A stretch of 64,000 nt of DNA, taken from the NCBI GenBank assembly GCA_903827375.1, contig CAIKHZ010000079.1:1-64000 (forward strand). The letters run 5' to 3'. Below the pieces are notes generated by a model. It made no database searches. It had not been told where the DNA came from and saw only the letters and a list, made by a program, of their open reading frames with translations. The DNA comes from Akkermansiaceae bacterium (GTDB lineage Bacteria; Verrucomicrobiota; Verrucomicrobiia; Verrucomicrobiales; Akkermansiaceae). A program made the translations under genes and the position numbers. Shown here in pieces: positions 1 to 56,376 of this stretch (position 1 is its first letter; the number at the start of each line of letters is the position of its first letter).

Positions 1-28
1 CAATCCCCAATCCCCAATCCCCAATCCC
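1..28. repeat. Heptamer tandem repeat (CAATCCC)x4
   Basis: Four perfect head-to-tail copies of CAATCCC open the window, followed by looser C/T-rich text that runs to the first start codon at 56. The repeat lies directly upstream of the BatA/VWA gene and may continue to the left of the window. Its function is unknown. It looks like a slippage-prone intergenic tract. Confidence 0.85.
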
Positions 29-55
29 CTGTCTCCTGTTCCCTGACTCCCGACC

Positions 56-4299: not shown

Positions 4300-4521
4300 A
4301 TCACTGCATGGCCGAAACATTTTGGAGCCCTTCGGCTGCGCTCAAGTGTCGTTTCACCGACCGTGTCAGCCTGCGGATTCTTTCGCAGATTCTTGGTCAC
4401 TTGGGCTTTGCCCCCCGCCTCAACCTGAGAAAATTCTGCCGAACCAAAACCATGCCCTCTTGGCGCGGCTGAGCCATGAAAGAGTCGAAACATCTGCGCG
4501 TAAAATTGACCTTATCTTACC

Positions 4522-7314
4522 ATGATCCGCCACCTGCTCTTTGCTGCCATTGTCCTGCCCGTCTGTGCCCAACCCGCACCCAATCCCGATCCTAACGGAA
4601 TCCTGCGCAAGCCCATTCCCGACAAATTAATCGTACTCACATTCGACGATGCCTGTGCCAGCGGTTATACCGTGGTGGCACCAATCCTGAAGCCGTTGGG
4701 ATTCAATGCCTCGTTCTATGTCTGCGACTTCGATTCGTTCAAAACACGCAAGGACTGGTACCTGACCTGGCGGCAGATGAGCGAACTGGATCGCAGGGGC
4801 TTTGAAATCGGCAATCACACCGTGGGCCATGGCGGCGGGATGGACAATTACCTCGCCATGGAGGATGAGTTGTTTGCAAACAACGGTCCCAAAATGACGA
4901 CCGTCTGCTGGCCGCTCTATGGGGTGGTCTGGAATATTTGTCCGGATCTCGCCAAGAACGGCTATACTTTCGGCCGGGGGGGCCATGAGCGTCCATACCG
5001 GCCGACGCTGGATAATCCGTTTGATGTGCCGTCGTTTACGATCACGGAAAGTCAACCAATCGAGGAGTTCGTTAAAAAAGCGAAGCAGGCCTGCCAGGGC
5101 CGGGTGGTCGTCTATTGCTTCCACGGTGTGCCCGACATGGAACATGGATCTGTTGGAGTTGAGCCAGCAACCTTCAAGGTGATGATGCAGTATCTGAAGG
5201 ACAACAACTACAAGTGCATCGCCATGCGCGACCTAGCCGAATATATGGATCCGGCAAAGGCCGCGAAGCTGCCGCCCCCAGCGAATGAGGTCAAGGCCGA
5301 AGAGCCGTTCCTGACCAACAAGGACGACAAACCATGCGGAGTGGTCGTCAAGGCCGTTAAGCCCAATCCCGAACCGGAAAAGAAGCCTGAGCCCGCCAAG
5401 GCGTCGCTCACCAAAGCCCCTGCTGTGAAGGCGATCAGCAGCGACAAGCCCAACGTTTTCACCTGGAGCAAGGCGGAAGCCGGCAATTGGAGTGATGGCC
5501 CCAAATGGACGAACAATCTCTCTAACGGATCCGCGCCGCTTGCGGCTGGTCAAGCGGACTATGTCCTCAACTTCGAGCAACCCGGAAAGTATGATGTGAC
5601 GCATGACCTGGAGGAAGGGTTCCAGATCAACCAGCTCAATCTGCGCGTGGGCCAGGGGAATGCCCTGAAGCTCAATGGCAAAGGCATCAAGTTTGTCGGC
5701 GAGCAGGCGAGCATCAATCAGAATTCAATTTTCACCGACGACAGAATCAACCTGCCCATCAATCTCACGTCAAATGTCACGGTCAATTCGTATGGTCACA
5801 ATGACTCACACCCTGCCGCCCGGCTCATCATCGCAGGCTTGATCACCGGGACTGGTGGACTGATCGTCAACGATGGCGGACCTCTCTTCATTACCAATTC
5901 GTCCAACACATACAGCGGTGGCACCATCATCAACAGTGGCACGCTTAATATGGATAGCTGGTCGAATGGCAAACCTGGAACACTGGGAACCGGGCCGGTA
6001 ACTCTGAATGAAGGCGCGACATTGGCACCTTGTGGCGGGATATGCACCAATCCCCTGATTTTAAACGGCGGCACGATCGAAGGCAACTTCACCTGGAACG
6101 GGCCTATTACCTTGAACGGCATTGCTGAAATTGCCGGGTTTAATTTGAATTTGAATAACATCAGCGGTGGCATCAGCGGGCCGGGCGGGCTTACCGAGCT
6201 TGGTATTCAGGGCAACTTCGGCAGGAATAACTTCGGCACGGTGTACCTCTGGGGCGTCAATACCTACACCGGTCCCACCACGGTTCGTATGGCAAAGCTG
6301 TTCATCAAAAAAGCCGCGTCACTTTACAACGCTGACACCGCGCAATGGACCCCGTCGAAAATCAGCGTCCACCCCGGGGCCACACTGGTGCTAAGCGCCG
6401 GCGCTGCGGGCGAGTTCAGCGGAGAACAAATCGGCACGTTGCTCAAGAAGCTAACCGAATCGGTCAACAACAACGGCTTGATGGCCGGTTCCATTGTGTG
6501 TCTGGATACCGCCAATCCGAAGGATATAGTCACGGTTTCGGCCAACATCTCGGATTCAAAGGGTCCTGGTGGCGGCGCGTTCCTCATCAAGAAATGCGGG
6601 GCCGGAACCTTGCAAATGACTGGCAAAAATACTTATACGGGCCAGACGATTCTTGAGAGCGGTGCGTTGAGTCTTTCGTCATTCAACAGCAGCACCAAAG
6701 GCAAAGGCAATCCTAACAGTAGCTTGGGTTCGCCGACAGATATTGAGTCCGGCGAGATTATCGTCGGCGAGGAAGACAAGGAAGGTGAGGCAGCGCTGAT
6801 CTATACTGGACCGGGCGAAACCACCGACCGCGTGATAAATCTTGCGGGCAAAAAATCCACTCTGACCCTTGATCAATCCGGCAGCGGTCTGCTCAAACTA
6901 ACCAGCACATTTGTGCTATCAGGCTACGGTGCCGACAAGACGATTGTGCTCAAGGGAGATACAGCCGGCACAGGTGAGATCGTCGGCAACCTGTTCAATC
7001 CGCATGACCGAGCAGGCAAGGCGATAACCGCCGTCACCAAATCCGGCACAGGCACCTGGGTGCTCTCCGGGACTAACACATACAGCGGCGCGACAACCGT
7101 GAAGCAGGGCACGCTGTCGATTGCTAGTGTGAAGAGCCTTGGCGAGAAGACTGATGTCTCTATTTCCGAAGGTGCAATGCTGGAGTTAAACTTCAAGGGT
7201 GACGTGAAGATAGCTAAACTCTATCTTGATGGAAAAGAACAATCCGCCGGAACATATAGCTCGGCGAATGCTCCTAAGTTCATCAAGGGCAAAGGCATCC
7301 TTAAACTTCAATAA
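4522..7314 (+). CDS. Secreted NodB polysaccharide deacetylase fused to PATR repeats (copy 1)
   Basis: The 930-residue protein has a short signal peptide ending near VCAQP. A NodB deacetylase domain (about residues 33-250) carries the metal-site motifs TFDD (D42, D43) and HTVGH (H99, H103), an RGGH segment and a late FHGVPD histidine. These fit metal-dependent removal of acetyl groups from a polysaccharide. A Lys/Pro/Glu-rich linker (about 275-300) leads into a beta-helix-like region of autotransporter-associated repeats of the NTYSGG...INSGTL type. The last 30 residues have the usual PATR ending (LYLDGKEQSAGTY...GKGILKL). There is no autotransporter barrel, so the repeats probably act as a surface stalk or binding module. 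Paralogues lie at 14224 and 17474. No good ribosome binding site is visible before the ATG. Confidence 0.88.
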   Translation: MIRHLLFAAIVLPVCAQPAPNPDPNGILRKPIPDKLIVLTFDDACASGYTVVAPILKPLGFNASFYVCDFDSFKTRKDWYLTWRQMSELDRRGFEIGNHTVGHGGGMDNYLAMEDELFANNGPKMTTVCWPLYGVVWNICPDLAKNGYTFGRGGHERPYRPTLDNPFDVPSFTITESQPIEEFVKKAKQACQGRVVVYCFHGVPDMEHGSVGVEPATFKVMMQYLKDNNYKCIAMRDLAEYMDPAKAAKLPPPANEVKAEEPFLTNKDDKPCGVVVKAVKPNPEPEKKPEPAKASLTKAPAVKAISSDKPNVFTWSKAEAGNWSDGPKWTNNLSNGSAPLAAGQADYVLNFEQPGKYDVTHDLEEGFQINQLNLRVGQGNALKLNGKGIKFVGEQASINQNSIFTDDRINLPINLTSNVTVNSYGHNDSHPAARLIIAGLITGTGGLIVNDGGPLFITNSSNTYSGGTIINSGTLNMDSWSNGKPGTLGTGPVTLNEGATLAPCGGICTNPLILNGGTIEGNFTWNGPITLNGIAEIAGFNLNLNNISGGISGPGGLTELGIQGNFGRNNFGTVYLWGVNTYTGPTTVRMAKLFIKKAASLYNADTAQWTPSKISVHPGATLVLSAGAAGEFSGEQIGTLLKKLTESVNNNGLMAGSIVCLDTANPKDIVTVSANISDSKGPGGGAFLIKKCGAGTLQMTGKNTYTGQTILESGALSLSSFNSSTKGKGNPNSSLGSPTDIESGEIIVGEEDKEGEAALIYTGPGETTDRVINLAGKKSTLTLDQSGSGLLKLTSTFVLSGYGADKTIVLKGDTAGTGEIVGNLFNPHDRAGKAITAVTKSGTGTWVLSGTNTYSGATTVKQGTLSIASVKSLGEKTDVSISEGAMLELNFKGDVKIAKLYLDGKEQSAGTYSSANAPKFIKGKGILKLQ

Positions 7315-7319
7315 CGGGT

Positions 7320-7505
7320 ATGACAAACTGTGACATCCTTGGATCGGCTCAAGTTTTCAAACAAGTCCGGGCCTTCACCGAGCACGGCGCGTTGATGGCC
7401 GCCATGGTTCTGAGCAGTCCCCGCGCCGTCGCCATGAGTGTGTATGTCGTCCGAGCCTTCATCCTAGAACCAAAGAACAAGAAACACAAATCAATAGGCT
7501 CATGA
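7320..7505 (+). pseudogene. ORF6N-domain protein C-terminal fragment
   Basis: The 61-codon open frame contains the stretch VRAFTEHGALMAAMVLSSPR, followed by a conserved-looking A-V-A-M-x-V-Y-V-V-R-A-F. This matches the end of the ORF6N domain, whose usual form is YAFTEQG.AMLSSVLNSERAI...IMR.F. ORF6N proteins are phage-like DNA-binding proteins of about 180 residues, so only the tail remains here. It lies between the first deacetylase and the fucosidase and overlaps the fucosidase start by 4 bases. I infer a remnant of a mobile or phage gene inserted into the locus. Translation of the fragment is possible but unsupported. Confidence 0.55.
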
Positions 7506-9391
7506 AAAAAATGATCATCGCATGGCTGGGTCTGGTCGTCACCCCGTTGATGGCGGCAGACAATGGGGTGCCGCCGAAGCCGTATGGCGCGGTGCCAAGC
7601 GCGGCGCAATTGCGCTGGCACGAAGACGAAATCATCAGTCTGGTCCACTTTTCCACCATTACCTACGCAGACAAGGAATGGGGTTATGGTGACGAGCCGG
7701 CCACGTTGTTCAATCCAACCGCTTTCGACGCGCGACAGATTGTTAGGTCTGCCAAGGACGGCGGCGTGAAACTGTTACTGCTGGTCACCAAGCACCACGG
7801 TGGCTTCTGCCTGTGGCCGAGCAAGTATAACGATACCTACACGGTGAAGAACAGCCCGTGGCGCGATGGCAAGGGCGATATGGTCAAGGAACTGGTGGAC
7901 GCCTGCCGTGCCGAGGGCCTGAAGGTGGGGTTTTACCTTTCGCCGTGGGACCGCAACCACAAGGACTATGGCATGCCGGAGTATGTCACGTATTTCCACA
8001 ACCAGCTTCGCGAGTTGCTCACTAACTATGGCGAGATCCATGAAGTGTGGTTTGATGGCGCCAACGGCGGCGACGGTTGGTATGGCGGTGCCAAGTGCAC
8101 CCGCCGCATCGAGGCTGAGAAATACTACCAGTGGGACAAGGTCATGGCGATTGTCAGGGAATTGCAGCCCAAAGCGGTTTGTTTCAATCGTGAGGACATC
8201 CGCTGGGTGGGCAATGAAAACGGCACCGCCGGCGATCCCTGCTGGGCCACCATGAATGGCGATGGCGAAGGCAGTGGCGTGCGCGGCGGTTCAATCTGGA
8301 TGCCCGCAGAGTCCGATTTCCCCCAACGCAACGGTTGGTTCTGGCATCCCAATGATCATACGAGATCGCCCGCCGATCTGCTAGGCCGCTACTTCGCCTC
8401 CGCCGGCCGCAACACAGTCATGAACATCGGCATCGCTCCTGATAGACGCGGCCTGATCTGCGAGGATGACGCCGCTGCTCTGAAAGGATTCGGCGACCGC
8501 GTCCGTGACATCTTCGCCACCAACCTGGCGACCTCTGCCAAAATTACCGCCAGCAACTCGCGGCCCGGGTTTCCACCCGACAATCTGATAGATGCCAAAC
8601 CCGCCACGTATTGGGCGAGTGACGACGACATGCTCACACCATCGGTGACGCTCGACTTCGGCAAACCAGTCACCTTCAGTGTGATCAGTCTGCGTGAATA
8701 CATCCAACTCGGCCAGCGAGTGGATGACTGGGCGTTAGATTTATGGGACGACGGGGTATGGAAAGAATTTGCCGCAGGCACCTGCATCGGCGCGCACCGA
8801 CTCTGGCGTGGTCAGCCGATCACGACCGGCAAGATCCGCCTGCGCATCACCAAGGCCGCGGCGTGCCCGGCCCTCGCCGAGTTTGGCGTCTATCTGGAAC
8901 CGGAAGCGAGCCGCCGCGAAGCTGGCAAAGCGCTAGCCAATGCGATGGAGACGGGCCTGCCCAAGACCGGTTGGAAGATCGTCTCTACCAGTTGCAAAGG
9001 AGAAGGCGAACTTGTAGGCAACGCCATTGATGGCAATCCCCGCACCCTGTGGTCCACACATGATAAGGCCGGGCATCATTCGCCGCCGCAGGAGGTCGTC
9101 GTGGACATGGGCGAGTCCCACGAATTGTCCGGCTTCCTCTATTTGCCGCGACAAGACTCGATCACCGCCGGCAATGTGGACCGCTACGCTTTCTATGTGA
9201 GCGCGGATGGTAAGGAGTGGGGCAATCCGGCGGCGCAAGGTGAATTCGGCAATATCCTCGCCAATCCAGTCCAACAGAAAGTCACGTTCGACAAACCGGC
9301 GACCGGCCGCTACTTCAAATTCGTCGGTCTGCACAGTGCTGACGCCCCATTTATCTGCGTCGCTGAACTCGGGGTGACCGCAACGAAATAA
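7502..9391 (+). CDS. Alpha-L-fucosidase, GH29, with two discoidin-like C-terminal domains
   Basis: The 629-residue protein has a clear signal peptide (MKKMIIAWLG..., cut near PLMAA). Residues about 25-345 form the GH29 catalytic barrel, with the conserved TKHHGGFCLW (residues 96-105) and FYLSPWD segments and WFDG, whose Asp185 is the expected nucleophile. It should release terminal alpha-L-fucose from glycans in the periplasm or outside the cell. Two F5/8-type C (CBM32-like) domains follow, about 348-462 and 480-628, and probably bind sugar. The next gene begins 9 nt after the stop, which suggests one transcript with the GH2 and (alpha/alpha)6-barrel genes. The fucosidase assignment is firm at family level. 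The preferred linkage cannot be told. Confidence 0.93.
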   Translation: MKKMIIAWLGLVVTPLMAADNGVPPKPYGAVPSAAQLRWHEDEIISLVHFSTITYADKEWGYGDEPATLFNPTAFDARQIVRSAKDGGVKLLLLVTKHHGGFCLWPSKYNDTYTVKNSPWRDGKGDMVKELVDACRAEGLKVGFYLSPWDRNHKDYGMPEYVTYFHNQLRELLTNYGEIHEVWFDGANGGDGWYGGAKCTRRIEAEKYYQWDKVMAIVRELQPKAVCFNREDIRWVGNENGTAGDPCWATMNGDGEGSGVRGGSIWMPAESDFPQRNGWFWHPNDHTRSPADLLGRYFASAGRNTVMNIGIAPDRRGLICEDDAAALKGFGDRVRDIFATNLATSAKITASNSRPGFPPDNLIDAKPATYWASDDDMLTPSVTLDFGKPVTFSVISLREYIQLGQRVDDWALDLWDDGVWKEFAAGTCIGAHRLWRGQPITTGKIRLRITKAAACPALAEFGVYLEPEASRREAGKALANAMETGLPKTGWKIVSTSCKGEGELVGNAIDGNPRTLWSTHDKAGHHSPPQEVVVDMGESHELSGFLYLPRQDSITAGNVDRYAFYVSADGKEWGNPAAQGEFGNILANPVQQKVTFDKPATGRYFKFVGLHSADAPFICVAELGVTATK

Positions 9392-9400
9392 ATAAGAATT

Positions 9401-11959
9401 GTGAACCCAAACAAATTCATCGGCCACCTCCTCAGATCCCGCAAGATCCTGTTAGCCTCAACTGTGCTGATGACAATGCCTGCGGCTGCGGCGGACGTGC
9501 TCCTGCCCGGCGCGGTCGAGGTCGGTTCGCGCGTCTCGTTCAACGCAGGTTGGCGTTTCGCTCGCTTTGGCGAGCAGGCCGACGGCAGCAAGGTGGCCGA
9601 ACCCAAAGAATTGGAGATGCCTGCTTTTGATGATAAAGAGTGGCGGCAGCTCGACCTGCCACATGACTGGGGCATTGAAGGACCGTTCAAGATAGAATTG
9701 CCGGGGGAAACCGGCAAGCTGCCGTGGTTCGGCATCGGTTGTTATCGCAAGGCCTTCACTGTGCCTGCCGAGGCCAAGGGCAAGCGCATCTTCCTCGATT
9801 TTGATGGAGCGATGAGCGACAGCACGGTATTTTTGAACGGCGAGAAGGTGGGCGGCTGGCCATACGGTTATAGTTCCTACCGGGTTGAATTGACCGAGCG
9901 GGTGCAGTTCGGAGCCGCCAATGTGGTGGCAGTTCGCCTCGATAACAAACCCCACTCCAGCCGCTGGTATCCGGGCGGTGGCATCTATCGGAACACTTGG
10001 TTGGTGACCACCGATCCGGTACACATCGCCCACTGGGGAGTTTACGTCACCACTCCCCACGTCGCCAAGGACAAGGCCGAAGTCCAAATGCAGGTGACTC
10101 TCGATAACCAGAGCGCAGCAGCCGCAGAGACGACAGTGGCCGTGGATATCTGGCGCCTCGGTGACAAACCTGTAAAGCTAACAGCGATTGCCCCGACCAA
10201 GATCCAGGTGGCCGTCGGCGGGAGTGCCACCTGCACCTTGAACGCCACGCTCGCTGATCCGGTGTTGTGGAATCTCGAAAGTCCCGTCCTCCACTGCGCC
10301 CTAACCACAGTGCGCGTCGGCGGCAAGGTGGTGGATACCCAACGCAGCGTGTTCGGCATTCGCAGCATCGAGATCACGGCCGACCGTGGCCTGCTGGTCA
10401 ACGGAAAACACATATCTATCAAGGGTGTGTGCAACCACCATGACTTGGGGGCGCTGGGTGCCGCGATCAATCTGCGGGCCATGGAGCGGCAGATCCAAAT
10501 TCTGCAGGAGATGGGCTGCAACAGCATCCGTACCAGCCACAATCCGCCGGCACCGGAATTGCTGGACCTCTGCGACCGCATGGGCATATTGGTCATGGAC
10601 GAGGCTTTCGATTGCTGGGTGTCCGGCAAAAAGCCCAACGACTATGCGCGTTTCTTCCCGGAGTGGCACGTCAAGGATGTCACAGCCATGGTGCATCGCG
10701 ACCGCAATCATCCGTCGGTTTTCCTGTGGAGCGCGGGCAATGAGATCCACGAGCAGGAACAAGGTGAGAAGGGTGCCGCCATCCTCAAATCACTCACGGA
10801 CATCTTCCACCGCGAGGACCCCTCGCGATTGGTGTCGGCAGGCTGCAACCACGGCGGCGTCATCGACAACGGATTCTACAAGGAAATGGACGTGCTGGGA
10901 CTCAACTATAAGAGGGGCGAGTATGATGGTTTCCACAAGAAGGACCCCAAGGTGCCGTTGTTAGCTAGCGAGACATCCTCATGTGTGAGTTCCCGCGGCG
11001 AGTATTTCTTTCCCGTTAGCAACGACAAAGGGCAGGGGTTTTTCGACTTCCAGGCCAGCTCCTATGACCTCTACGCGCCGTTCTGGGCCTTTCCCCCGGA
11101 CAACGATTTTGATGCTCTGGACAGATGTCCCTACGTGCTTGGCGAATATGTGTGGACGGGTTTCGACTACCTGGGTGAGCCGACGCCATTCAACTCCGAC
11201 CCGAGCAACCTGCTCAACTTCCAGGATGAGCAATCGCGCAAAGCCGCCGCCGAGGAGTTGCAGCGCCTTGGCAAGATCAAGTGCCCGTCCCGTAGCTCCT
11301 ACTTCGGCATCGTTGATCTGTGTGGATTCAAAAAGGACCGATTCTATATCTATCAGGCGAAGTGGCGGCCGGAACTGCCCATGGCCCACATCCTGCCGCA
11401 CTGGAACTGGCCTGAGCGAATCGGTCAGGTGACTCCCGTCCACGTTTACACCTCGGGCGACGAGGTCGAGTTATTCCTCAATGGCACGTCGCTCGGCAGG
11501 AAAAGGAAAGGCCAATACGAGTACCGCCTGCGCTGGAACGACGTTGTCTATGCGCCGGGAACCTTGCAGGCCGTGGCGTACAAGGATGGCAAACCCTGGG
11601 CCAAAGACGAGGTCACCACCACCGGCCTAGCGGCAAAACTAACGGCTGTCGCCGACCGTGCCGTCATCACCGCCGACCGCCGAGATCTGTCCTACGTCAC
11701 CGTCACCGTGGTGGATAAAGACAGCCGCATGGTGCCGCGCTCCAAAAACCTGGTGCATTTCTCCCTGAACGGCCCGGGCGAAATCGTGGCGGTGGACAAC
11801 GGTGACGCGACCAGCCTCGAACCCTTGATCGCCAAGCAGATGAAGGCATACAACGGCCTGTGCCTGGCCATCGTGCGCGCCACCGGACCGGGAGCGATCA
11901 CTTTGACCGCTAGCGCCGATGGCCTAACTGGTGCCAAGGTGGTGGTGACCGGGAACTAA
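9401..11959 (+). CDS. Beta-galactosidase-type glycoside hydrolase, GH2
   Basis: The GTG at 9401 opens an 852-residue protein whose N-terminus (LRSRKILLASTVLMTMPAAAA) is a signal peptide. The domains follow the GH2 order: a sugar-binding jelly roll (WYPGGGIYRNTWL about residues 186-198), an Ig-like domain, and a TIM barrel with GVCNHHDLGALGAA and TSHNPPAPELLDLCD. The acid/base lies in SAGNEIHE (Glu448) and the predicted nucleophile in LLASETSSC (Glu524). A DUF4982-like and a further Ig-like domain end the protein. It probably removes beta-linked galactose or a related sugar from the polysaccharide attacked by the neighbouring fucosidase. It is 9 nt from the GH29 gene and 10 nt from the next. 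Confidence 0.92.
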   Translation: MNPNKFIGHLLRSRKILLASTVLMTMPAAAADVLLPGAVEVGSRVSFNAGWRFARFGEQADGSKVAEPKELEMPAFDDKEWRQLDLPHDWGIEGPFKIELPGETGKLPWFGIGCYRKAFTVPAEAKGKRIFLDFDGAMSDSTVFLNGEKVGGWPYGYSSYRVELTERVQFGAANVVAVRLDNKPHSSRWYPGGGIYRNTWLVTTDPVHIAHWGVYVTTPHVAKDKAEVQMQVTLDNQSAAAAETTVAVDIWRLGDKPVKLTAIAPTKIQVAVGGSATCTLNATLADPVLWNLESPVLHCALTTVRVGGKVVDTQRSVFGIRSIEITADRGLLVNGKHISIKGVCNHHDLGALGAAINLRAMERQIQILQEMGCNSIRTSHNPPAPELLDLCDRMGILVMDEAFDCWVSGKKPNDYARFFPEWHVKDVTAMVHRDRNHPSVFLWSAGNEIHEQEQGEKGAAILKSLTDIFHREDPSRLVSAGCNHGGVIDNGFYKEMDVLGLNYKRGEYDGFHKKDPKVPLLASETSSCVSSRGEYFFPVSNDKGQGFFDFQASSYDLYAPFWAFPPDNDFDALDRCPYVLGEYVWTGFDYLGEPTPFNSDPSNLLNFQDEQSRKAAAEELQRLGKIKCPSRSSYFGIVDLCGFKKDRFYIYQAKWRPELPMAHILPHWNWPERIGQVTPVHVYTSGDEVELFLNGTSLGRKRKGQYEYRLRWNDVVYAPGTLQAVAYKDGKPWAKDEVTTTGLAAKLTAVADRAVITADRRDLSYVTVTVVDKDSRMVPRSKNLVHFSLNGPGEIVAVDNGDATSLEPLIAKQMKAYNGLCLAIVRATGPGAITLTASADGLTGAKVVVTGN

Positions 11960-11969
11960 CTACTCAACC

Positions 11970-14036
11970 ATGATAACGAAAACAACAATCATTTTAACAT
12001 CGCTTATGGCCGTCGCGCTGACGGAGGCGGCGGTGCCGATTGACCGGCAGGCGCTGGTGACGCGACATAACATTACCTGGAATGACGCGGGGGGACGTGT
12101 TGCGCTGGGCAACGGTGAATTTTGCTTTGGGGCGGATGGCAGCGGTTTGCAGACGTTCGCTGGCAACAGCATGGCACACTGGGGCTGGCACAGTTTTCCC
12201 CTGCCGGATGGCTGTACCACCGACATGGTGCCCGCCACTGGCGCGTTTGAGCAGCGCAATATCGACGGCAAGCTGAAGGGTGCCGTCAATTCCTGGATGT
12301 TCGACAATCCGCACAAGATGAACCTCGGGCGTCTGCGGTTGGTGCGTTCGGGCGGACGCAACCTGGCACCGGGCGATCTCAAAGGCTTGAGCAGGACTCT
12401 TGATTTGTGGGCCGGAGTGCAGACCTCGAGATATCAGATTGATGGCCAAGATGTGACGGTGGAGACCTGCGTTCACCCGCAACTGGATATGGTGGCGGTG
12501 CGGATTGATTCGCCACTCGTGGCGAGCGGCGGGTTGGAAGTGGTTCTGGATTTCGCCTATCCAAATCTCGACAAAGGTGGCCCATGGGTCGGGGATTTTA
12601 ACCACAGTGACGGGCATGCCTCGACGACAATCAACGCCAAAAATCAGCGCCTCGATCTTAAACGCGTGGTTGATGCAAGCATCTATCATGTGAGTATCGC
12701 CGCTGCGACGGGCTGTGTGATCGGTCAAGCTGACGGCAAGAGTCATAGATACAAAGTTTCGGCGCATGGAGTGCATGTGCTGGAATTCTCCTGTGCCTTC
12801 GCAATGGCCCCGCCGCCTGCTAGCTTGCCGACTTTTGAACCAACCCGAACGGCTTGTGCCGGACATTGGAAAAATTTTTGGATGCATGGTGGGGCGATCG
12901 ATCTATCAGCCAGCAAGGATCCGCGCTGGAAGGAACTGGAGCGCCGCATCGTGCTGTCACAATACCAGTTGGCCGCGCAGTCGGCCGGCACGTGGCCGTC
13001 GGCTGAGACTGGACTGTTAGGTCTGGATGACTGGCGCGGCCAGTTTCACATGGAAATGCTGTGGTGGCACCTAGCGCATTATGCCTTGTGGGATCGCTGG
13101 GCGATGGGAACCAAGGCGTTGGACTGCTACCGGAAATTCATTCCAACCGCGCTCGAGCTGGCCACCCAGTTAGGTTCCAAGGGCATGATGTGGGGCAAGG
13201 AATGCGGACCTGAAGGCCGCTCCGCCCCATGGAGTGGCAACCATCCTCTGTTATGGAAACAACCGCATCCAATCTTTTTTGCCGAACTGGAGTATCGCCT
13301 GAAGCCGACCCGCGAGACGCTCAAGAAGTGGGCCGAGATCGTTGAAGGAACCGCCGAGCAGATGGCCGACTATGCCAAGCGTGACACCACAACCGGCATT
13401 TATTCGTTATATCCTGCGATGCCACCGAGCGAGCAAGGTATCACAAAGAACGATGTGTTTGATCTCGCCTACTGGCGCTGGGCGCTGGACATGGCGCAGC
13501 AATGGCGGGAGCGCATGGGCATGCCGCGCGATCCACATTGGGACGAGGTACGCAACAATCTAACTCCCCTACCGGTGGCCGATGGCCTCTTCGTGCATTC
13601 CACCGAATGGACCGATACCTATACCAAGCGCAACTTTGAACATCCCGATCCGATCGGCGTCCTTGGCCTGCTGCCGCCGACCCGGGGAGTGGATGCAGCA
13701 ACCGCCGCTCGCACGGTCGCCAAGGTTTGGACGACGTGGCAATGGGACCGCTGTTGGGGTTGGGATTTCCCGTGGATGGCGATGGCCGCAGCTCGCACCG
13801 GCCAGCCGCAAATCGCCGTGGACGCCTTGCTCAAAAATTCCCCGCGCAACGACTACGATGCCCAAGGTATCAATGCCGGCGGGCCTTGTCCCTACCTGCC
13901 CGGCAATGGCGGACTGCTCTATGCCGTGGCCATGATGGCCGCCGGATGGGATGGTGCCCCACCACGCCACGCCCCCGGCTTTCCCGATGACGGCAGTTGG
14001 GTGGTGCAATGGGAAGGCTTGAAGGCCGCGCCTTGA
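11970..14036 (+). CDS. Putative (alpha/alpha)6-barrel glycoside hydrolase (GH65/GH95-like)
   Basis: The 688-residue protein has a signal peptide ending near ALTEA. The N-terminal part (RHNITWND...LGNGEFCFGADGSGLQTF) looks like the beta-sandwich entry of clan GH-L enzymes. The second half has paired helices with LDDWRGQFHMEMLWWHLAHY (around residue 353) and WGWDFPWMAMAAARTG, typical of an (alpha/alpha)6 barrel. I cannot place it in a named family with certainty; GH65 and GH95 relatives are the closest I recognise. As the third gene of the GH29-GH2 run, it probably acts on the same secreted substrate. The stop lies 187 bases before the start of the second deacetylase. Confidence 0.65.
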   Translation: MITKTTIILTSLMAVALTEAAVPIDRQALVTRHNITWNDAGGRVALGNGEFCFGADGSGLQTFAGNSMAHWGWHSFPLPDGCTTDMVPATGAFEQRNIDGKLKGAVNSWMFDNPHKMNLGRLRLVRSGGRNLAPGDLKGLSRTLDLWAGVQTSRYQIDGQDVTVETCVHPQLDMVAVRIDSPLVASGGLEVVLDFAYPNLDKGGPWVGDFNHSDGHASTTINAKNQRLDLKRVVDASIYHVSIAAATGCVIGQADGKSHRYKVSAHGVHVLEFSCAFAMAPPPASLPTFEPTRTACAGHWKNFWMHGGAIDLSASKDPRWKELERRIVLSQYQLAAQSAGTWPSAETGLLGLDDWRGQFHMEMLWWHLAHYALWDRWAMGTKALDCYRKFIPTALELATQLGSKGMMWGKECGPEGRSAPWSGNHPLLWKQPHPIFFAELEYRLKPTRETLKKWAEIVEGTAEQMADYAKRDTTTGIYSLYPAMPPSEQGITKNDVFDLAYWRWALDMAQQWRERMGMPRDPHWDEVRNNLTPLPVADGLFVHSTEWTDTYTKRNFEHPDPIGVLGLLPPTRGVDAATAARTVAKVWTTWQWDRCWGWDFPWMAMAAARTGQPQIAVDALLKNSPRNDYDAQGINAGGPCPYLPGNGGLLYAVAMMAAGWDGAPPRHAPGFPDDGSWVVQWEGLKAAP

Positions 14037-14223
14037 TTCATGATGAAAGTGCTTTTACCATTTTTTTGGAAAACTGCAAGATGACACGCCGCTACGATGC
14101 GGCGCAAGAACGCCCAACATGCCGCCGTATTGGCGTGACTTGCTGCCAGCCGCCGCCATTCCCACGTACCCACACAACGACCCAATGCCCATGAACCATC
14201 ATCTCGGGAAGAATTTACCGACC

Positions 14224-17200
14224 ATGCAAACATCCCCAATAGGAATGTTCCTTCTCGCCGCCATTGCGCTGCCTTTCATGGCTTGCGGCCAAGCGATTGC
14301 CGACCCCGATCCCACCGGCATCCTGCGCAAGCCCATCCCCGACAAACTCGTGGTGCTCACCTTCGACGACGCCTGTGCCAGCGGCTACACAGTGGCCGCT
14401 CCGATCCTCAAATCACTTGGATTTGGCGGCTCATTCTATGTTTGCGACTTCGACTCATTCAAGACCCGAAAAGATTGGTATCTGACGTGGCGGCAGATGA
14501 GAGCTCTCAATGACGAGGGCTTTGAGGTCGGCAACCACACCGTCGGCCATGGCGGGAGTTTGGAGGCTTTTGTGGCCATGGACAACGCGCTGTTTGCCAA
14601 TCACGGGCCCAAGATGACCACCGTCTGCTGGCCACTCTACAACGTGAACTGGAATATCTGTAAGGATCTGGCCAACAACGACTACACCTTCGGCCGCGGC
14701 GGCCATGAGTGCCCCTACAGGCCGACGCTGGACAATCCGTTTGATGTGCCGTCATACACGATGAACGATGGAGTCACCATGCAGGCATTCACCAAAATCG
14801 TGCGCCGGGCCGTCAATGGAAAGATTGTTGTCCTAACCTACCACGGTGTGCCGGACATGGAACACGGAAGCGTTTCAGTCAAGGCCGAGACCTTCAAGGC
14901 AATGATGCAGTATTTGAAGGACAATCATTACCAAGCCATCGCCATGCGCGACCTGACCGGGTATATTGATCCGGCAAAAGCCGCCAAGCTACCGCAAAAG
15001 TCCGGTGAGTTCAAAGAGCCGGACCCCGTCGCGTTGGCCTCGGAAGATCAGCCCTATGTGGCTCCTCCAGCCAAGGATATCCAAGAGTTCAACATCCCCA
15101 ATCTGCCCTCGGCCACCATCTCCCAAACCCACATCAGCATCACCGTGCCCCACGCCACGGATGTGACAGCACTTATACCTAACATCAAGCTGTCGGACGG
15201 AGCCAGCATCAAGCCTGCCTCCGGCACCCCAGTCGATTTTTCAACCCCCCAGAACTATAACGTCACCAGTAAAGATGGCTCCACCAAAATATATGCCGTG
15301 ACGGTTGAAAAGGCCGCCATCAGCGCGGCGAAAGACATCCTAACCTTTGAATTGCCGGGGGCAACGGCAGTCACCATTGCTGCAAATCGGGTCGGCGTGT
15401 ATGTGCCGGGCTCCACAGACCTGAAGGCTCTAACGCCAACCTTTGTACTGTCGCCTTTTGCCGTCAGCTCTCCGCCATCCGGCACAACGCGCGACTTCAC
15501 CCAAACTCAGACCTACACGATCCGTGCTCAGGACGGATCTTCCCGATCCGTTAGTGTGGTGGTCGTCAGGAGTGACAAGCCAAACTCATTCGTCTGGAGC
15601 AAAGCGGAAGGCGGCAACTGGAGTGATGGGGCCAAATGGTCGCACAATCTTGCTGCGGGACAGGCGCCCGCCAGCACCGGCCAGTCCGACGGTATGCTGA
15701 CCTTTAGCCAGCGCGGGACTTATGCCGCCAATAACGACCTGACGGCCGGATTCAAGCTCAACCAACTCAATCTGACGAGCGCCTCCGCGGGTTTGACGCT
15801 GGGCGGCAACGCCATCAATTTTGTCAAGAATGGTGCTAGCGGCGTATTGCCGGCGCTCCAAGCGATCCAAAACCAAGGAATCGCGAACATCAGCACGCCG
15901 ATCAACCTCACTGACGACCTTCACGTGAATATGAATCTGGAAAAAGATCCCAATGTCTATCTGACTCTCAGCGGCTTGGTATCGGGCTCCGGAGCTCTGG
16001 TTCTTAACAGCCATGCCACCGAATTTCCAGCGTTCAGCAACCATGATGCACACTACGGCATCATCAGACTGACCCACTCGAACACCTACAGCGGTGGCAG
16101 CTTCGTGAATGGTGGGAAGATTATCCTGGGCGCGCCTGATGGTCTGGGAACGGGCCCTGTGATGATCTCTGGCTTCGGCACCATCCAGGACAGCAGTGGC
16201 TCCATCAATGCCCTAACGATTAACAACGGTTACCTGTATTCCTGCACCTGGAACGGTCCCGTCACCCTCAACGGAATCAGCAGTTTTTATGGTGATTGCA
16301 AGATTCATGGCGGCATCAGTGGTGCCGGAGGATTTGTCATGCTAGGAACTCCAGGCACCTACCTCAACATGACCCCAGGCGGCAGCGTGACCCTTGATGG
16401 AACCAATACTTATAGCGGGCCAACCACGGTGTTTCCTGGCACGCTGATTGTCAAAAAGGCAGCGAGCCTTTACAACGCTGATCCAGCGAAGTGGACGCCC
16501 ACCAGCATCACCATCCACAAGGCTGCAACGCTATGTCTCAACGTCGGCGGCCCGGCTGAGTTGACTGGCAGCCAAGTCGGCAAACTTGTGGGAAATCTCA
16601 CCAGTGAGATCCATGATAACGGCCTGATGGGAGGTTCGCTGTTGTGTCTGGATACTTCCAATGCCGCAGACCCTGTGTTGGTATCCGCCGCCATAACGGA
16701 TTCAAAAGGTCCGGGAGGCGGCCCGTTTCTCATCAAAAAATGCGGGCCTGGAATCCTGCGTCTGTCCGGCAACAACACCTATACCGGGCAGACAGTTCTT
16801 GAGACCGGCAGCTTGAGTGTTTCTTCATTCAACAGTATCACCAAAGGCAGGGCCAGCAGCAGCCTGGGAGCACCGCCGGACATTGAGGCCGGGGAGATTG
16901 TCATTGGCAATGAAGGCAAGGACGGCGATTGTTGTCTGATCTATACCGGTACCGGCGAAACCTCCGACCGCGTGTTAAACCTCGCCGGAAAATTGTCCAC
17001 CGTGACCATCGACCAAGCCGGCAGCGGCCTGCTCAAATTCACCAGCGACCTGCTCATCTCCGGCTATGGAGCTGACAAAACCCTCGCGCTCGGCGGCAAT
17101 GCATCTGGCAGCGGCGAACTTGCTGGAGCCATCACCAATCCTTATGACCGAGCGGGCAAAGCAAGCACCTCCGTCATCAAATCCGGTGCGGGCATCTGGG

Positions 17201-17457
17201 TCCTCTCCGGGACAAATACTCACACCGGTCCGACAATCGTGAAGCAGGGCACGCTGTCAATTGCGAGCAAGCTAGGTTTGGGAGATAAAACCGATGTCTA
17301 TCTTTGCGAAGGCGCGGTTCTCAGTCTCAACTTCAATGGCGAGATGCGCATCGGAAAACTCTATCTCGATGGCAAACTACAACCCGCCGGCACCTATGGC
17401 ACGTTGACAAATTCCACCTATCTCAAGGGTCAAGGCGTTTTGAAATGTCACCTGTAA
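14224..17457 (+). CDS. Secreted NodB polysaccharide deacetylase fused to Ig-like domains and PATR repeats (copy 2)
   Basis: I take the ATG at 14224, which gives 1077 residues and starts directly at a signal peptide (MQTSPIGMFLLAAIALPF). The in-frame ATG at 14191 or the longer frame from 14119 would add a non-hydrophobic leader. The NodB domain keeps TFDD (D48, D49), HTVGH (H105, H109), RGGH and YHGVPD. Unlike the other copies, two tandem Ig-like domains of about 80 residues (both ending in a Tyr-x-Val/Ile...DGS pattern) sit between the catalytic domain and the PATR region. The C-terminus has the LYLDGKLQPAGTY ending. It sits 16 nt before copy 3, so the two are likely cotranscribed. It probably deacetylates an extracellular polysaccharide. 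Confidence 0.87.
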   Translation: MQTSPIGMFLLAAIALPFMACGQAIADPDPTGILRKPIPDKLVVLTFDDACASGYTVAAPILKSLGFGGSFYVCDFDSFKTRKDWYLTWRQMRALNDEGFEVGNHTVGHGGSLEAFVAMDNALFANHGPKMTTVCWPLYNVNWNICKDLANNDYTFGRGGHECPYRPTLDNPFDVPSYTMNDGVTMQAFTKIVRRAVNGKIVVLTYHGVPDMEHGSVSVKAETFKAMMQYLKDNHYQAIAMRDLTGYIDPAKAAKLPQKSGEFKEPDPVALASEDQPYVAPPAKDIQEFNIPNLPSATISQTHISITVPHATDVTALIPNIKLSDGASIKPASGTPVDFSTPQNYNVTSKDGSTKIYAVTVEKAAISAAKDILTFELPGATAVTIAANRVGVYVPGSTDLKALTPTFVLSPFAVSSPPSGTTRDFTQTQTYTIRAQDGSSRSVSVVVVRSDKPNSFVWSKAEGGNWSDGAKWSHNLAAGQAPASTGQSDGMLTFSQRGTYAANNDLTAGFKLNQLNLTSASAGLTLGGNAINFVKNGASGVLPALQAIQNQGIANISTPINLTDDLHVNMNLEKDPNVYLTLSGLVSGSGALVLNSHATEFPAFSNHDAHYGIIRLTHSNTYSGGSFVNGGKIILGAPDGLGTGPVMISGFGTIQDSSGSINALTINNGYLYSCTWNGPVTLNGISSFYGDCKIHGGISGAGGFVMLGTPGTYLNMTPGGSVTLDGTNTYSGPTTVFPGTLIVKKAASLYNADPAKWTPTSITIHKAATLCLNVGGPAELTGSQVGKLVGNLTSEIHDNGLMGGSLLCLDTSNAADPVLVSAAITDSKGPGGGPFLIKKCGPGILRLSGNNTYTGQTVLETGSLSVSSFNSITKGRASSSLGAPPDIEAGEIVIGNEGKDGDCCLIYTGTGETSDRVLNLAGKLSTVTIDQAGSGLLKFTSDLLISGYGADKTLALGGNASGSGELAGAITNPYDRAGKASTSVIKSGAGIWVLSGTNTHTGPTIVKQGTLSIASKLGLGDKTDVYLCEGAVLSLNFNGEMRIGKLYLDGKLQPAGTYGTLTNSTYLKGQGVLKCHL

Positions 17458-17473
17458 CATCCAACTTGTTTTT

Positions 17474-20296
17474 ATGAAAATGCGCAATTTCAGGGCATTC
17501 CTGCTCGCCGCCACCATCCCCGTGCCTGCCCTCGTCAGCGGGCAGACGTCGCCCGCTCCCGATCCCAATGGCATCCTGCGAAAACCCATTCCGGATAAGA
17601 TCGTCGTCCTCACGTTTGATGACAGTCCCGCCAGTCACGCCACCAATGTAGGACCGATCCTCAAACCACTGGGCTTCGGTGCCTCGTTCTATGTTTGCGA
17701 CTTTGACTCGTTCAAGACGCGCAAGGATTGGTATATGACTTTTCGGCAGATGAAGGTTTTGAATGATGAAGGGTTTGAGATCGGCAACCACTCTGCAGGA
17801 CATTCATCCGGCTTCGACGCAATGCTGGCCATGGAAGACGAGTTGCTAGCCAATCACTGTCCCAAGCCCACCACCATCGCCTGGCCCCTGCACCAGGCAA
17901 ATGTAACACCGCAACTGGCGGCAGCTGGATATATCTTTGCGCGCGGCGGGCATAACCGAGCCTACAGACCGACGGTGGATAATCCATTCGAGATCCCCTC
18001 CATGTGGTGCAGCGATCTGGATGGCTTTGTTAAAATGGTCCGCCAAGCCGCCGGCGGCAAGATTGTGACGATTTGTTACCATGGAGTGCCGGACATGGAG
18101 CATCCGCCGGTCTCACTTGATCCCGAGGTCTTCAAGGTGCAGATGCAGTACTTGAAAGACAATCATTACAAGGTTATCGCACTGCGGGATCTGATAGAGT
18201 ATATTGATCCGGTGAAGGCCGCCAAGCTGCCGCCCACAGCAAGCGATTTTAAAGATCCCGGGCCGGTTGTGCTGGCGGCGGAGGAGAAGCCCTGCGGCGT
18301 GGTTAAGCCCGTTAAAACCGAGCTTGCAAGCGAGCGAAGATCTCCGGTGGACAAACTTTTGAGGAAACCGACGGTGAATGTCGGCGTGGTGACGCCCTTG
18401 GACAAGAGTCGGCCCAATGTCTTTACCTGGGGCAAGCCGGAGGCTGGCAATTGGAGCGAGGCCTCCAAGTGGTCCAATAATCTCGCCGTCGGATCCGCAC
18501 CAGCAACATCCGGCCAGTCCGACTATGTGTTGAATTTCAGCCAGACTGCCCCCTGCGCCGTTAAGAATGATTTTAACCCGGGATTTGCTCTTAACCGTCT
18601 CACTCTGGGCGATGCTTGCGGGGGTATGGTTTTGGCAGGATCCGGCATCACATTCGTCAAGAACGGTGGTCAGGGCGCGGCACCTGCGATTGTTGCGGGC
18701 AAGTGCCAGAGGGTTGACATCAACGTGCCCGTCAAGCTGCAGGAGAATCTAGCCGTGAACACGTTTCCAGAAAGGGACCCGAATGCCTTTATCAGTTTCA
18801 ATGAGGTTATCTCCGGGTCCGGGGGGCTTGCGCTTAACAGTTCTGGTGATCCAGACGTAGCGGGTATCAATTTTCATGATGTGCACTTTGGAATTCTACA
18901 ATTTAATAACAGCAATACCTACCAAGGCGGCACCCTCATCAACGGTGGTAAGATTAATGTTAGGAAGTCAGACGGGCTGGGAACCGGCACCGTAACACTC
19001 GATAACTTCGGCACATTGTCCTCCGATAGCGTCCTTGGCAACCCGCTGGTGATCAACCACGGCACGCTGTTTCATTGCTCCCTCAGTGGACCGGTGACCC
19101 TCAATGGAATCGCCAACTTCATCAGTGATTGCGAGATTTCAGGTTGCATCAGCGGAGTCGGCGGCTTTGCCATGCTTGGTACCAATGGAACCTATCTGAG
19201 CATGGTTCCCGGTGGTACGGTGACCCTCAGCGGTTCCAATACTTATACTGGTCCGACCACGGTTTTTCCCGGCACGCTGATTGTCAAAAAAGCCGCGGGG
19301 CTTTACCATGCCGATCCAGCGAAATGGACGCCTGCAAACGTCACCGTGCACAAGGCGGCAACCCTGCGGCTCAACATCGGCGGCCCGGCCGAGTTCACCG
19401 GCGAACAAGTCGGCAAGCTTGTTGTTAATCTAACCAAGTCAATTCATGATAACGGCCTGATGGGCGGATCAGTCCTGTGTCTGGATACGGCCAACGCCAA
19501 AGATTCAGTTAGAGTTTCAGCCAACCTATTGGATGCAGATGGTCCGGGCGGCGGCTCATTTCTAATCAAGAAGTGTGGAGCTGGCACATTGCAGTTATCA
19601 GGCAACAACACCTTTACAGGGCAGACGGTTCTAGAGAGCGGAATGCTGAGTGTCTCTTCCTTTAACTGCTACACCAAAGGCAAGGGCAAGGCCAGCAGCA
19701 GCCTGGGAGTGCCAACTGACATAGAGTCCGGCGAGATCGTCATTGGGGAGGCTGGGAAGGATGGGGATTGCGCCGTGATCTATACCGGCACGGGTGAGAT
19801 GACCGACCGTGTGATGAATCTCTCCGGGAAGAAGGCCACAGTAACATTCAATCAATCCGGCAGTGGCCTGCTCAAATTCACCAGCGACTTCCTGATCTCT
19901 GGCTATGGTGCCGACAAGACAATCGAGCTCAGCGGTGATAGTGCTGGCAGCGGTGAGCTCGCCGGCAATCTGCAAAATCCGCATGACCGAGTCGGCAAAG
20001 CCAGTTGTGCCGTCACCAAGTCCGGCAGCGGCACCTGGACGCTCTCTGGAGCCAACAGTTATACGGGACCGACGAAGATTCTCAAGGGCACTCTCATCCT
20101 AGCCAATTCCCGCAGTCTGAGCGACAAAACTGAAGTATCAATCTCCGAGGGGGCTGCAATCAATCTCAATTTCAAGGGCGATATACGTGTTAGCAAACTC
20201 TATCTCGACGGCAAGCTGCAACCTGCCGGCACCTATAGCTCGACCAGCAATCCGGCACATTTCAAGGGCCATGGCAAATTGCTAACGAATAATTGA
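17474..20296 (+). CDS. Secreted NodB polysaccharide deacetylase fused to PATR repeats (copy 3)
   Basis: The 940-residue protein follows copy 2 by 16 nt and shares its whole architecture with copy 1: signal peptide (MKMRNFRAFLLAATIPVPAL), the sequence GILRKPIPDK, a NodB domain, a linker and PATR repeats. The active site differs slightly. The first motif is TFDDS (D49, D50) and the second is HSAGH (H106, H110), where the other copies have TFDDA and HTVGH. The GGH segment reads FARGGHNRAYRP, where the others read FGRGGHE(R/C)PYRP. The metal ligands are kept, so activity is likely, but the acceptor specificity may differ. The three copies look like a local duplication followed by divergence. Confidence 0.88.
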   Translation: MKMRNFRAFLLAATIPVPALVSGQTSPAPDPNGILRKPIPDKIVVLTFDDSPASHATNVGPILKPLGFGASFYVCDFDSFKTRKDWYMTFRQMKVLNDEGFEIGNHSAGHSSGFDAMLAMEDELLANHCPKPTTIAWPLHQANVTPQLAAAGYIFARGGHNRAYRPTVDNPFEIPSMWCSDLDGFVKMVRQAAGGKIVTICYHGVPDMEHPPVSLDPEVFKVQMQYLKDNHYKVIALRDLIEYIDPVKAAKLPPTASDFKDPGPVVLAAEEKPCGVVKPVKTELASERRSPVDKLLRKPTVNVGVVTPLDKSRPNVFTWGKPEAGNWSEASKWSNNLAVGSAPATSGQSDYVLNFSQTAPCAVKNDFNPGFALNRLTLGDACGGMVLAGSGITFVKNGGQGAAPAIVAGKCQRVDINVPVKLQENLAVNTFPERDPNAFISFNEVISGSGGLALNSSGDPDVAGINFHDVHFGILQFNNSNTYQGGTLINGGKINVRKSDGLGTGTVTLDNFGTLSSDSVLGNPLVINHGTLFHCSLSGPVTLNGIANFISDCEISGCISGVGGFAMLGTNGTYLSMVPGGTVTLSGSNTYTGPTTVFPGTLIVKKAAGLYHADPAKWTPANVTVHKAATLRLNIGGPAEFTGEQVGKLVVNLTKSIHDNGLMGGSVLCLDTANAKDSVRVSANLLDADGPGGGSFLIKKCGAGTLQLSGNNTFTGQTVLESGMLSVSSFNCYTKGKGKASSSLGVPTDIESGEIVIGEAGKDGDCAVIYTGTGEMTDRVMNLSGKKATVTFNQSGSGLLKFTSDFLISGYGADKTIELSGDSAGSGELAGNLQNPHDRVGKASCAVTKSGSGTWTLSGANSYTGPTKILKGTLILANSRSLSDKTEVSISEGAAINLNFKGDIRVSKLYLDGKLQPAGTYSSTSNPAHFKGHGKLLTNN

Positions 20297-42986: not shown

Positions 42987-43218
42987 TCATCCTCTGGCCC
43001 ATGATCTAACTACTAACAGACACAAAGTCAAGGTGCGGCAACCCATCTTTGAGTTCAGCAAAGAATTATTTTCCGCTGGCGCTGGTGGCGGCAAAATGTA
43101 CTCTGACTTCAATGGTCGTCCAACGGGGCTACCTGAGTAGTTACTATAGAACAATCTGCACCCAAACCACCCAAACGCCTCAGCGTTCCACCATGAAAGT
43201 CCGGAAAGCAAAAATGCC

Positions 43219-56319: not shown

Positions 56320-56376
56320 CCTGCTCATGACAGGTTCCCTGTTTGGCCGGACATTCCGAAATTCCCCGGGCTACCC

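Follow-up and report, generated by a model that had tools for sequence, protein, structure and literature searches.

Degradation of methyl-pentose polysaccharides, fucoidan and mucin among them, is described for aquatic Akkermansiaceae and other Verrucomicrobiota, where glycoside hydrolase (GH) families GH29, GH78, GH95 and GH106, sulfatases and microcompartments take part (PMC13174399). The stretch analysed here and called the window comprises the initial 64 kb of a contig of 74.5 kb from an Akkermansiaceae bacterium (CAIKHZ010000079.1; genome of 6.1 Mb in 370 contigs, 96% complete); at positions 4522-20296 it carries a run of six genes on the same strand. Three of these encode proteins in which a deacetylase domain of the NodB type is joined to a beta-solenoid of PATR repeats. 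We put at about an even chance the reading that they are secreted accessory deacetylases, each with its solenoid, serving the breakdown of acetylated, deoxyhexose-bearing polysaccharides.

Two classes of NodB domain are distinguished. In the permuted NodB2 class motif 5 comes first (PMC10967932) and the canonical motif-3 RxPY is absent (PMC10967932, PMC8807736). PgaB-type enzymes and PplD are active without the motif-3 arginine, which is supplied from elsewhere; in the poly-GlcNAc enzymes the substitute sits just before motif 4 (both points PMC10967932, PMC5855634, PMC8807736). In these poly-GlcNAc enzymes the motif-2 histidines are separated by four residues (PMC5855634) and, as in PplD, the motif-4 aspartate is absent (PMC5855634, PMC8807736). 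PplD acts on the linkage unit of rhamnopolysaccharides (PMC8807736) and PgaB on a polymer of its own cell (PMC5855634).

A NodB domain fixed to a beta-solenoid

Fusion 1 (4522-7314, 930 residues) begins with a signal-like stretch, followed by NodB (approximately 4582-5286), a linker modelled at low confidence and the beta-solenoid (approximately 5449-7311). Fusion 2 (14119-17457, 1112 residues as listed) has NodB at 14305-15027, an extra segment assigned by Pfam to DUF5018 at approximately 15070-15303 and the solenoid at approximately 15580-17454; alignment with relatives indicates that it probably starts at the ATG at 14224 rather than at 14119. Fusion 3 (17474-20296, 940 residues) comprises NodB (17558-18265) and solenoid (approximately 18413-20293). 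All lie on the forward strand and all three frames are open at the coordinates given in an earlier note on this DNA, which had proposed that each copy joins a complete NodB domain to PATR without an autotransporter barrel. Pfam, a structural model and the conservation of catalytic residues bear this out. Polysacc_deac_1 is matched above its cut-off in each protein (E 1.2e-8 to 8e-8). PATR occurs in three, three and four stretches in fusions 1, 2 and 3 (E 5.7e-19 to 6.5e-26), scoring 68.3, 80.5 and 90.5 bits where the cut-off is 27, and the C-terminal autotransporter barrel (PF03797) is missing from all three by the same search.

The Pfam alignment spans profile positions 3-69 of 124 only, so the completeness of the NodB domain rests on residue conservation and on an AlphaFold2 model of fusion 1, the one protein of the three to be folded, computed from an alignment of 41 sequences. 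The model (residues 21-930, mean pLDDT 86.1, pTM 0.80) presents a whole CE4/NodB barrel at residues 21-255, the low-confidence linker and a beta-solenoid that continues to the end. The earlier note had envisaged a stalk and suggested that its structure be predicted; the solenoid is what the model gives. Comparison with the PDB matches many CE4 chains, with Z scores of 13-15 over 164-214 residues, SpPgdA scoring 14.7. For window positions 4582-5247 (model residues 1-222) a viral protein, the turret of Haloferax tailed virus 1 (HFTV1), is the best structural match, at Z 18.5 over 198 residues, and ranks ahead of all other CE4-type entries among the matches listed. In a viral fold library the top entries match the NodB part, for example Bacillus phage G gp673, and the solenoid finds weak beta-helix matches only.

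Does the domain keep what catalysis requires? Both aspartates of TFDD, both histidines of HTxxH, the late histidine of motif 5 and the proline of motif 3 are identical in 41 of 41 sequences, the window proteins included; in all, 12 residues in and near the active site show this full identity. Motif 5 (FHG or YHG) is C-terminal in the sequence and in the model, which is the ordinary, unpermuted order. Motif 3 reads WP, without arginine, and does not conform to the canonical CE4 RxPY. Arg132 is invariant and Arg137 and Arg140 nearly so, all of them ahead of the invariant Asp144. The proteins might instead be mainly surface adhesins or scaffolds, with the solenoid as the working part and NodB as a pseudoenzyme or a module for binding. 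In favour of this, the well-conserved solenoid exceeds the enzyme in length, the motif-3 arginine is missing and inactive CE4 relatives exist (BA3943). That reading is very improbable in our view, given the unvarying aspartates, histidines and proline, the arginines placed before Asp144, and the activity of PgaB-type enzymes and PplD, which also lack the motif-3 arginine according to the three papers cited above.

The best profile relatives of solved structure are PplD (E 1.4e-11), IcaB (7.2e-11), PgaB (1.5e-9) and BpsB, together with several entries named polysaccharide deacetylase or deacetylase-like, the first three being matched as de-N-acetylases. The eight top matches (E 1.4e-11 to 7.2e-8) rank above 7ax7 (3.2e-7), which is an order of similarity and not a tree. 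In all five alignments listed among the top solved relatives the match falls into two segments in swapped order. Because PplD and the PgaB group are de-N-acetylases, N-deacetylation is the better guess, and by analogy with them we infer that the window domains would remove N- rather than O-linked acetyl groups.

The solenoid is right-handed, conserved and permanently joined to the NodB domain. Mean pairwise identity over the 41 sequences is 68.5% for NodB and 35.8% for the linker; within the solenoid it rises from 45.0% in the first part to 59.6% in the last. Set against the NodB value, the last figure shows the C-terminal part of the solenoid to be maintained almost as an enzyme domain is. 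The passenger of EspP is matched with Z 14.0, but the root mean square deviation of 15.7 over 420 residues makes this a weak similarity.

Fusion to an enzyme is not a general trait of PATR proteins. Of the genome's 29 remaining PATR frames with long N-termini, one carries GH2 and one DUF6288; the remainder, judged from the best 25 of 29 families, carry LamG, RCC1, immunoglobulin (Ig)- or cadherin-type, HEAT or other non-catalytic domains, PATR or nothing. Enzyme-PATR fusions exist, and NodB is the commonest among those listed in this genome. At another locus (L089, 9976-13305; genome G000, contig C358) a protein with RCC1 repeats and a HYDIN-like Ig domain has a PATR solenoid 47% identical to residues 550-873 of fusion 1, and it looks as if solenoids may have been exchanged between proteins.

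The N-termini of the NodB-PATR proteins resemble signal peptides, judged by eye, and no anchor was identified in these proteins. A barrel supplied in trans was considered and set aside, as the two barrel matches of the genome lie on other contigs with no link to NodB-PATR shown. A C-terminal module common to 24 of 39 other PATR frames of this genome, its profile built from 26 of those same frames, is missing from all six of its NodB-PATR proteins. Free secretion or periplasmic residence would fit as well as surface tethering. Two more PATR proteins in the window lack NodB. One (43150-46719) ends in the module just described; the other (56320-60264) scored no match to it, though its end looks similar.

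Origin and distribution of the fused genes

The earlier note had allowed that the fusion might be split in relatives, as an artefact of assembly or annotation. It recurs intact: at 43 of 52 loci, on several dozen differently named contigs, PATR lies in the NodB frame, and beyond the fused clade NodB is found alone. In a tree of 84 NodB domains all 50 PATR-fused sequences fall within one clade of 54 (support 100/99), which likewise rules out an artefact. The four remaining members (L071, L072, L087 and L073) have no PATR match and occupy two places in that clade. Counted on the label alone, two gains of the fusion require two changes, and one gain with two losses requires three, which tells against a single origin. 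However, homology between the two fused groups extends over the whole solenoid (48% for the copy on contig C198, over residues 284-930) and L087 is cut by a contig end, which favours one fusion event as the probable history. Standalone NodB looks like the older state.

A domain search across Verrucomicrobiota, suggested in the earlier note, shows the fusion recurring in relatives and the domain mostly standing alone elsewhere. The NodB-domain profile matches 32 of 288 genomes of the phylum; the fetched loci cover all but three (G172, G220 and G225) of the 30 matching genomes that lie outside the window's family. Most open frames outside that family are of 216-311 residues and are standalone NodB. 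At five of the 27 standalone loci the frame extends to 479-540 residues, with a BD-FAE-like esterase ahead of NodB (by Pfam in two, by phmmer in five). Within the genus the NodB part is matched in only 3 of 25 genomes searched, the window's own included (G000, G005 and G006), so the family is patchy. The 41 related loci are mostly from records titled Akkermansiaceae, Akkermansia, Prosthecobacter or other Verrucomicrobiota metagenome-assembled genomes, and isolate names such as LacPavin suggest that many carriers come from lakes. Six NodB-PATR loci are labelled Planctomycetota (L046, L052, L060, L061, L064 and L077), through lateral transfer or misbinned contigs.

The earlier note counted three copies. 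The window does hold three; the genome has six complete ones, the others being on contigs C34, C45 and C198, as well as a copy on C40 cut by the contig end and a fragment on C257. Each of the three window genes belongs to a supported subclade of its own, and every one of these subclades includes genes from other genomes. The closest relative of fusion 2 is the first gene of a tandem pair at L062, where fusions 2 and 3 both have counterparts and the enzyme queries find a SASA-type carbohydrate esterase and no GH29 or GH2; the clade-mates of fusion 3 are at L080, L063 and L062. The separate subclades and the tandem counterparts make the paralogy old and rule out a recent tandem duplication. One contig (L037) encodes a NodB domain 99% identical to that of fusion 1, yet the BatA/VWA and GATase1-like genes found upstream in the window are replaced there by a SASA-type gene. 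The difference from window positions 1-4500 is a rearrangement, or one of binning or assembly.

Gene neighbourhoods

Neighbouring enzymes were sought with phmmer queries within 8 kb of the NodB gene at the 52 loci. SASA-type esterases are found at 22, sulfatases at 11, GH106 and GH2 at five each, GH78, GH20 and GH29 at three each and GH95, GH127 and MGH1-like genes at two each; at least one tested family is present at 40. For the 43 loci with PATR in the NodB frame the counts are SASA 18, sulfatase 10, GH2 four, GH29 three and any tested family 34. Around other PATR proteins, drawn from the window's genome only, any family occurs at 10 of 31 loci and SASA at two, and around standalone NodB at three of 27 and none. 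After deduplication SASA is present at 12 of 28 clusters compared with approximately 2.0 expected (Poisson P 1e-6) from 651 Pfam hits in 109.1 Mb of 20 host genomes. The placing of NodB-PATR genes among polysaccharide-degrading genes, as the earlier note had it, is upheld by these comparisons.

Pfam confirmed all ten of a hand-picked set of SASA frames, six of them being DUF2341-LamG-SASA proteins. Among 69 neighbours of NodB genes it finds SASA seven times, GH78 and GH2 four times each, GH106 and MGH1 three times each and sulfatase twice (best 25 of 115 families). The 23 neighbours of other PATR genes give one GH116 and none of these families (best 25 of 57), and at the standalone loci no SASA is among the matches listed within 8 kb of the NodB gene. 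Two related loci that form one cluster (L058 and L059) have the contiguous order SASA-GH20-NodB-PATR, which hints at N-acetylhexosamine in some substrates. A second esterase recurs, encoded next to NodB (SASA) or forming part of one chain with it (BD-FAE-like, or GDSL as at L084), which suggests that two kinds of acyl group are removed in tandem. The idea that acetyl groups are removed as a step in degradation gains from this repeated pairing; its specific tie to fucosidases is not supported. The L084 protein (9296-15292) is a frame of 1999 residues in which NodB is combined with a Rha78A-type Ig domain, LamG, the GDSL esterase, DUF7133, HEAT repeats and cytochrome c.

Several observations weigh against a degradative deacetylase. 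The motif-3 arginine is absent, no SASA match occurs on the window's contig, the tested enzyme families are all missing at 12 of the 52 loci and unrelated neighbours occur (glycine dehydrogenase, TPR, DUF58, AIPR, PSD1/DUF1501). Most esterase and glycosidase queries came from NodB neighbourhoods, which makes the enrichment somewhat circular, and in the distant genomes with standalone NodB these queries may lose sensitivity; only the SASA expectation has an independent Pfam count. The proteins might instead modify the cell's own envelope or exopolysaccharide, as PgaB, IcaB and PplD do, with the solenoid holding them at the surface and the degradative neighbours incidental. The closest profile relatives include these three and BpsB, which act on polymers of their own cell, and the 12 loci devoid of the tested degradative families point the same way. 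The SASA enrichment speaks against this, as does the presence in one genome of several paralogues whose degradative neighbours differ, and among the neighbours listed genes for synthesis or export are few (a WbsX-like gene at L055 and one OEP-family protein). We judge an envelope role unlikely.

How informative is the window itself? The six genes are, in order, fusion 1, GH29, GH2, an unclassified GH65/GH95-like gene, fusion 2 and fusion 3, separated by 187, 9, 10, 82 and 16 bases. The second (7502-9391, forward strand, 629 residues) encodes a GH29-type alpha-L-fucosidase (PF01120, E 4.5e-35) with two F5/8 type C stretches (PF00754, E 7.4e-34). The third (9401-11959, forward strand, 852 residues) is a GH2 beta-galactosidase of the GalB type, with Pfam GH2 domains and an NCBIfam NF041463 score of 1073.6 bits (cut-off 900). 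The cluster lies between BatA/VWA and GATase1-like genes upstream and FIST-domain and MenD genes downstream; these are apparently unrelated, so that the cluster is bounded.

A general association with fucosidases, which the earlier note had drawn from this run, finds no support. GH29 is within 8 kb at three of 52 loci (the window, L063 and L080) and GH95 at two; deduplicated, GH29 is present in two clusters against 1.1 expected (P 0.3), not above its genome-wide density, and a fixed fucosidase partner as a rule is rejected. The co-occurrence survives in the clade of fusion 3, where three of four members have GH29 nearby, an observation made post hoc; the distances are 2.8 and 3.7 kb at the other two loci and 8.1 kb for fusion 3 itself. 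L063 has the contiguous order GH29-GH78-NodB-PATR-GH78, with GH106 further on, and L080 has GH29 and GH78 nearby. Carbohydrate-active enzyme genes may be so frequent that the GH29-GH2 run is a chance cluster and uninformative: the genome holds 20 GH29 (PF01120) and 62 SASA matches, GH29 is hardly above expectation and close relatives of fusion 1 (L038 and L041) have other neighbours. Given the tight spacing of the six genes on one strand, and the post hoc tie in the fusion 3 clade, we find a chance grouping distinctly unlikely.

The fourth gene (11970-14036, forward strand, 688 residues) encodes an unclassified glycoside hydrolase-like protein, distantly similar to GH65 and GH95 and classed by profile methods alone. 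PF14498 scores 18.1 bits (E 0.0028), under the cut-off of 27.7, and a three-row profile finds weak similarity to the GH65 kojibiose phosphorylase (E 8.4e-4). NCBIfam and a single-sequence PDB search give no match. The label GH-L-like in the earlier note is accordingly to be taken loosely, the link to GH65 being through that profile. Relatives occur in five of 59 genomes searched, its own included, and it possibly represents an undescribed glycosidase family.

Of the copies elsewhere in the genome, the one on C45 has an FGGY sugar kinase and GH95 as neighbours, the one on C198 has SASA and GH127, and the one on C34 has PSD1 and DUF1501. PSD1 (DUF1553)/PSCyt2 genes are also near NodB genes of the family, standalone or fused, at L120, L122, L086 and L074, with DUF1501 at L120 and L086 as well.

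Proposed role and comparison with described systems

We infer the following scheme. The products of the three genes would be carbohydrate deacetylases with the NodB/CE4 fold, secreted and dependent on a metal, and each fixed to a beta-solenoid. The fusion would have arisen, probably once, from standalone NodB in a mainly Verrucomicrobiota lineage, and would then have split into a number of old paralogue groups; the window has representatives of three. Their targets would be acetylated heteropolysaccharides containing deoxyhexoses such as fucose and rhamnose. The NodB domain would strip acetyl groups, probably from amino sugars, and a separate esterase of SASA, GDSL or BD-FAE type would often take off other ester groups. 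The deacetylase would act before or together with the glycosidases; locus-specific glycosidases or sulfatases (GH29, GH2 and the GH65/95-like protein in the window) would release the sugars. The solenoid may grip the substrate or serve as a spacer, keeping the enzyme attached to its polymer or at a distance from the cell.

Each of the parts is known, and the combination of NodB and PATR seems to be new; we found no description of the fusion or of its pairing with SASA in the open-licence literature searched. If correct, the scheme adds a deacylation step to the attack of lake Verrucomicrobiota on stubborn acetylated polysaccharides that bear fucose or rhamnose, and makes a PATR solenoid a fixed part of an enzyme that has no autotransporter barrel. 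The NodB subfamily could also help to explain how one NodB class came to be circularly permuted relative to the other.

A term search of PMC8857213 gives no occurrence of deacetylase, autotransporter or PATR, and NodB-PATR proteins are not mentioned in the main text of PMC13174399, a difference from the methyl-pentose degraders described there. In common with those organisms GH29, GH78, GH95, GH106, sulfatases and microcompartments recur around the window genes or in the genome and its relatives, and the 20 GH29 matches with five for BMC domains of microcompartment shells fit that lifestyle. With the type V autotransporter passengers, EspP and its relatives, the window proteins share PATR repeats and a beta-solenoid; unlike them they have no C-terminal barrel.

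The CE4 enzymes of the NodB1 class (SpPgdA, PdaC, chitin deacetylases and acetylxylan esterases) have the same fold, order of elements, Asp-Asp pair, HTxxH and late histidine as the window family, which differs from them in its low sequence similarity, the lack of RxPY in motif 3 and a Pfam alignment that covers the first half of the domain only. The NodB2 enzymes PgaB, IcaB, BpsB and PplD are its best profile matches and resemble it in a motif-3 proline without arginine, a similar metal triad and a possible relocated arginine, here before a conserved aspartate. Unlike these circularly permuted enzymes, in which motif 5 leads, the window family has motif 5 last, in the ordinary order, and it carries the PATR solenoid. 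It also has three residues between the motif-2 histidines in place of the four of the poly-GlcNAc enzymes and keeps a motif-4 aspartate, the invariant Asp144, that those enzymes and PplD lack; the spacing and the aspartate argue against close kinship with the poly-GlcNAc enzymes. The family might be an unpermuted sister of the permuted PgaB/IcaB/PplD class, with the active-site chemistry of NodB2 in ordinary strand order, fused in one mainly Verrucomicrobiota lineage to a solenoid that acts as a polysaccharide-gripping track, and working with SASA-type esterases in a two-step deacylation. We think this unlikely.

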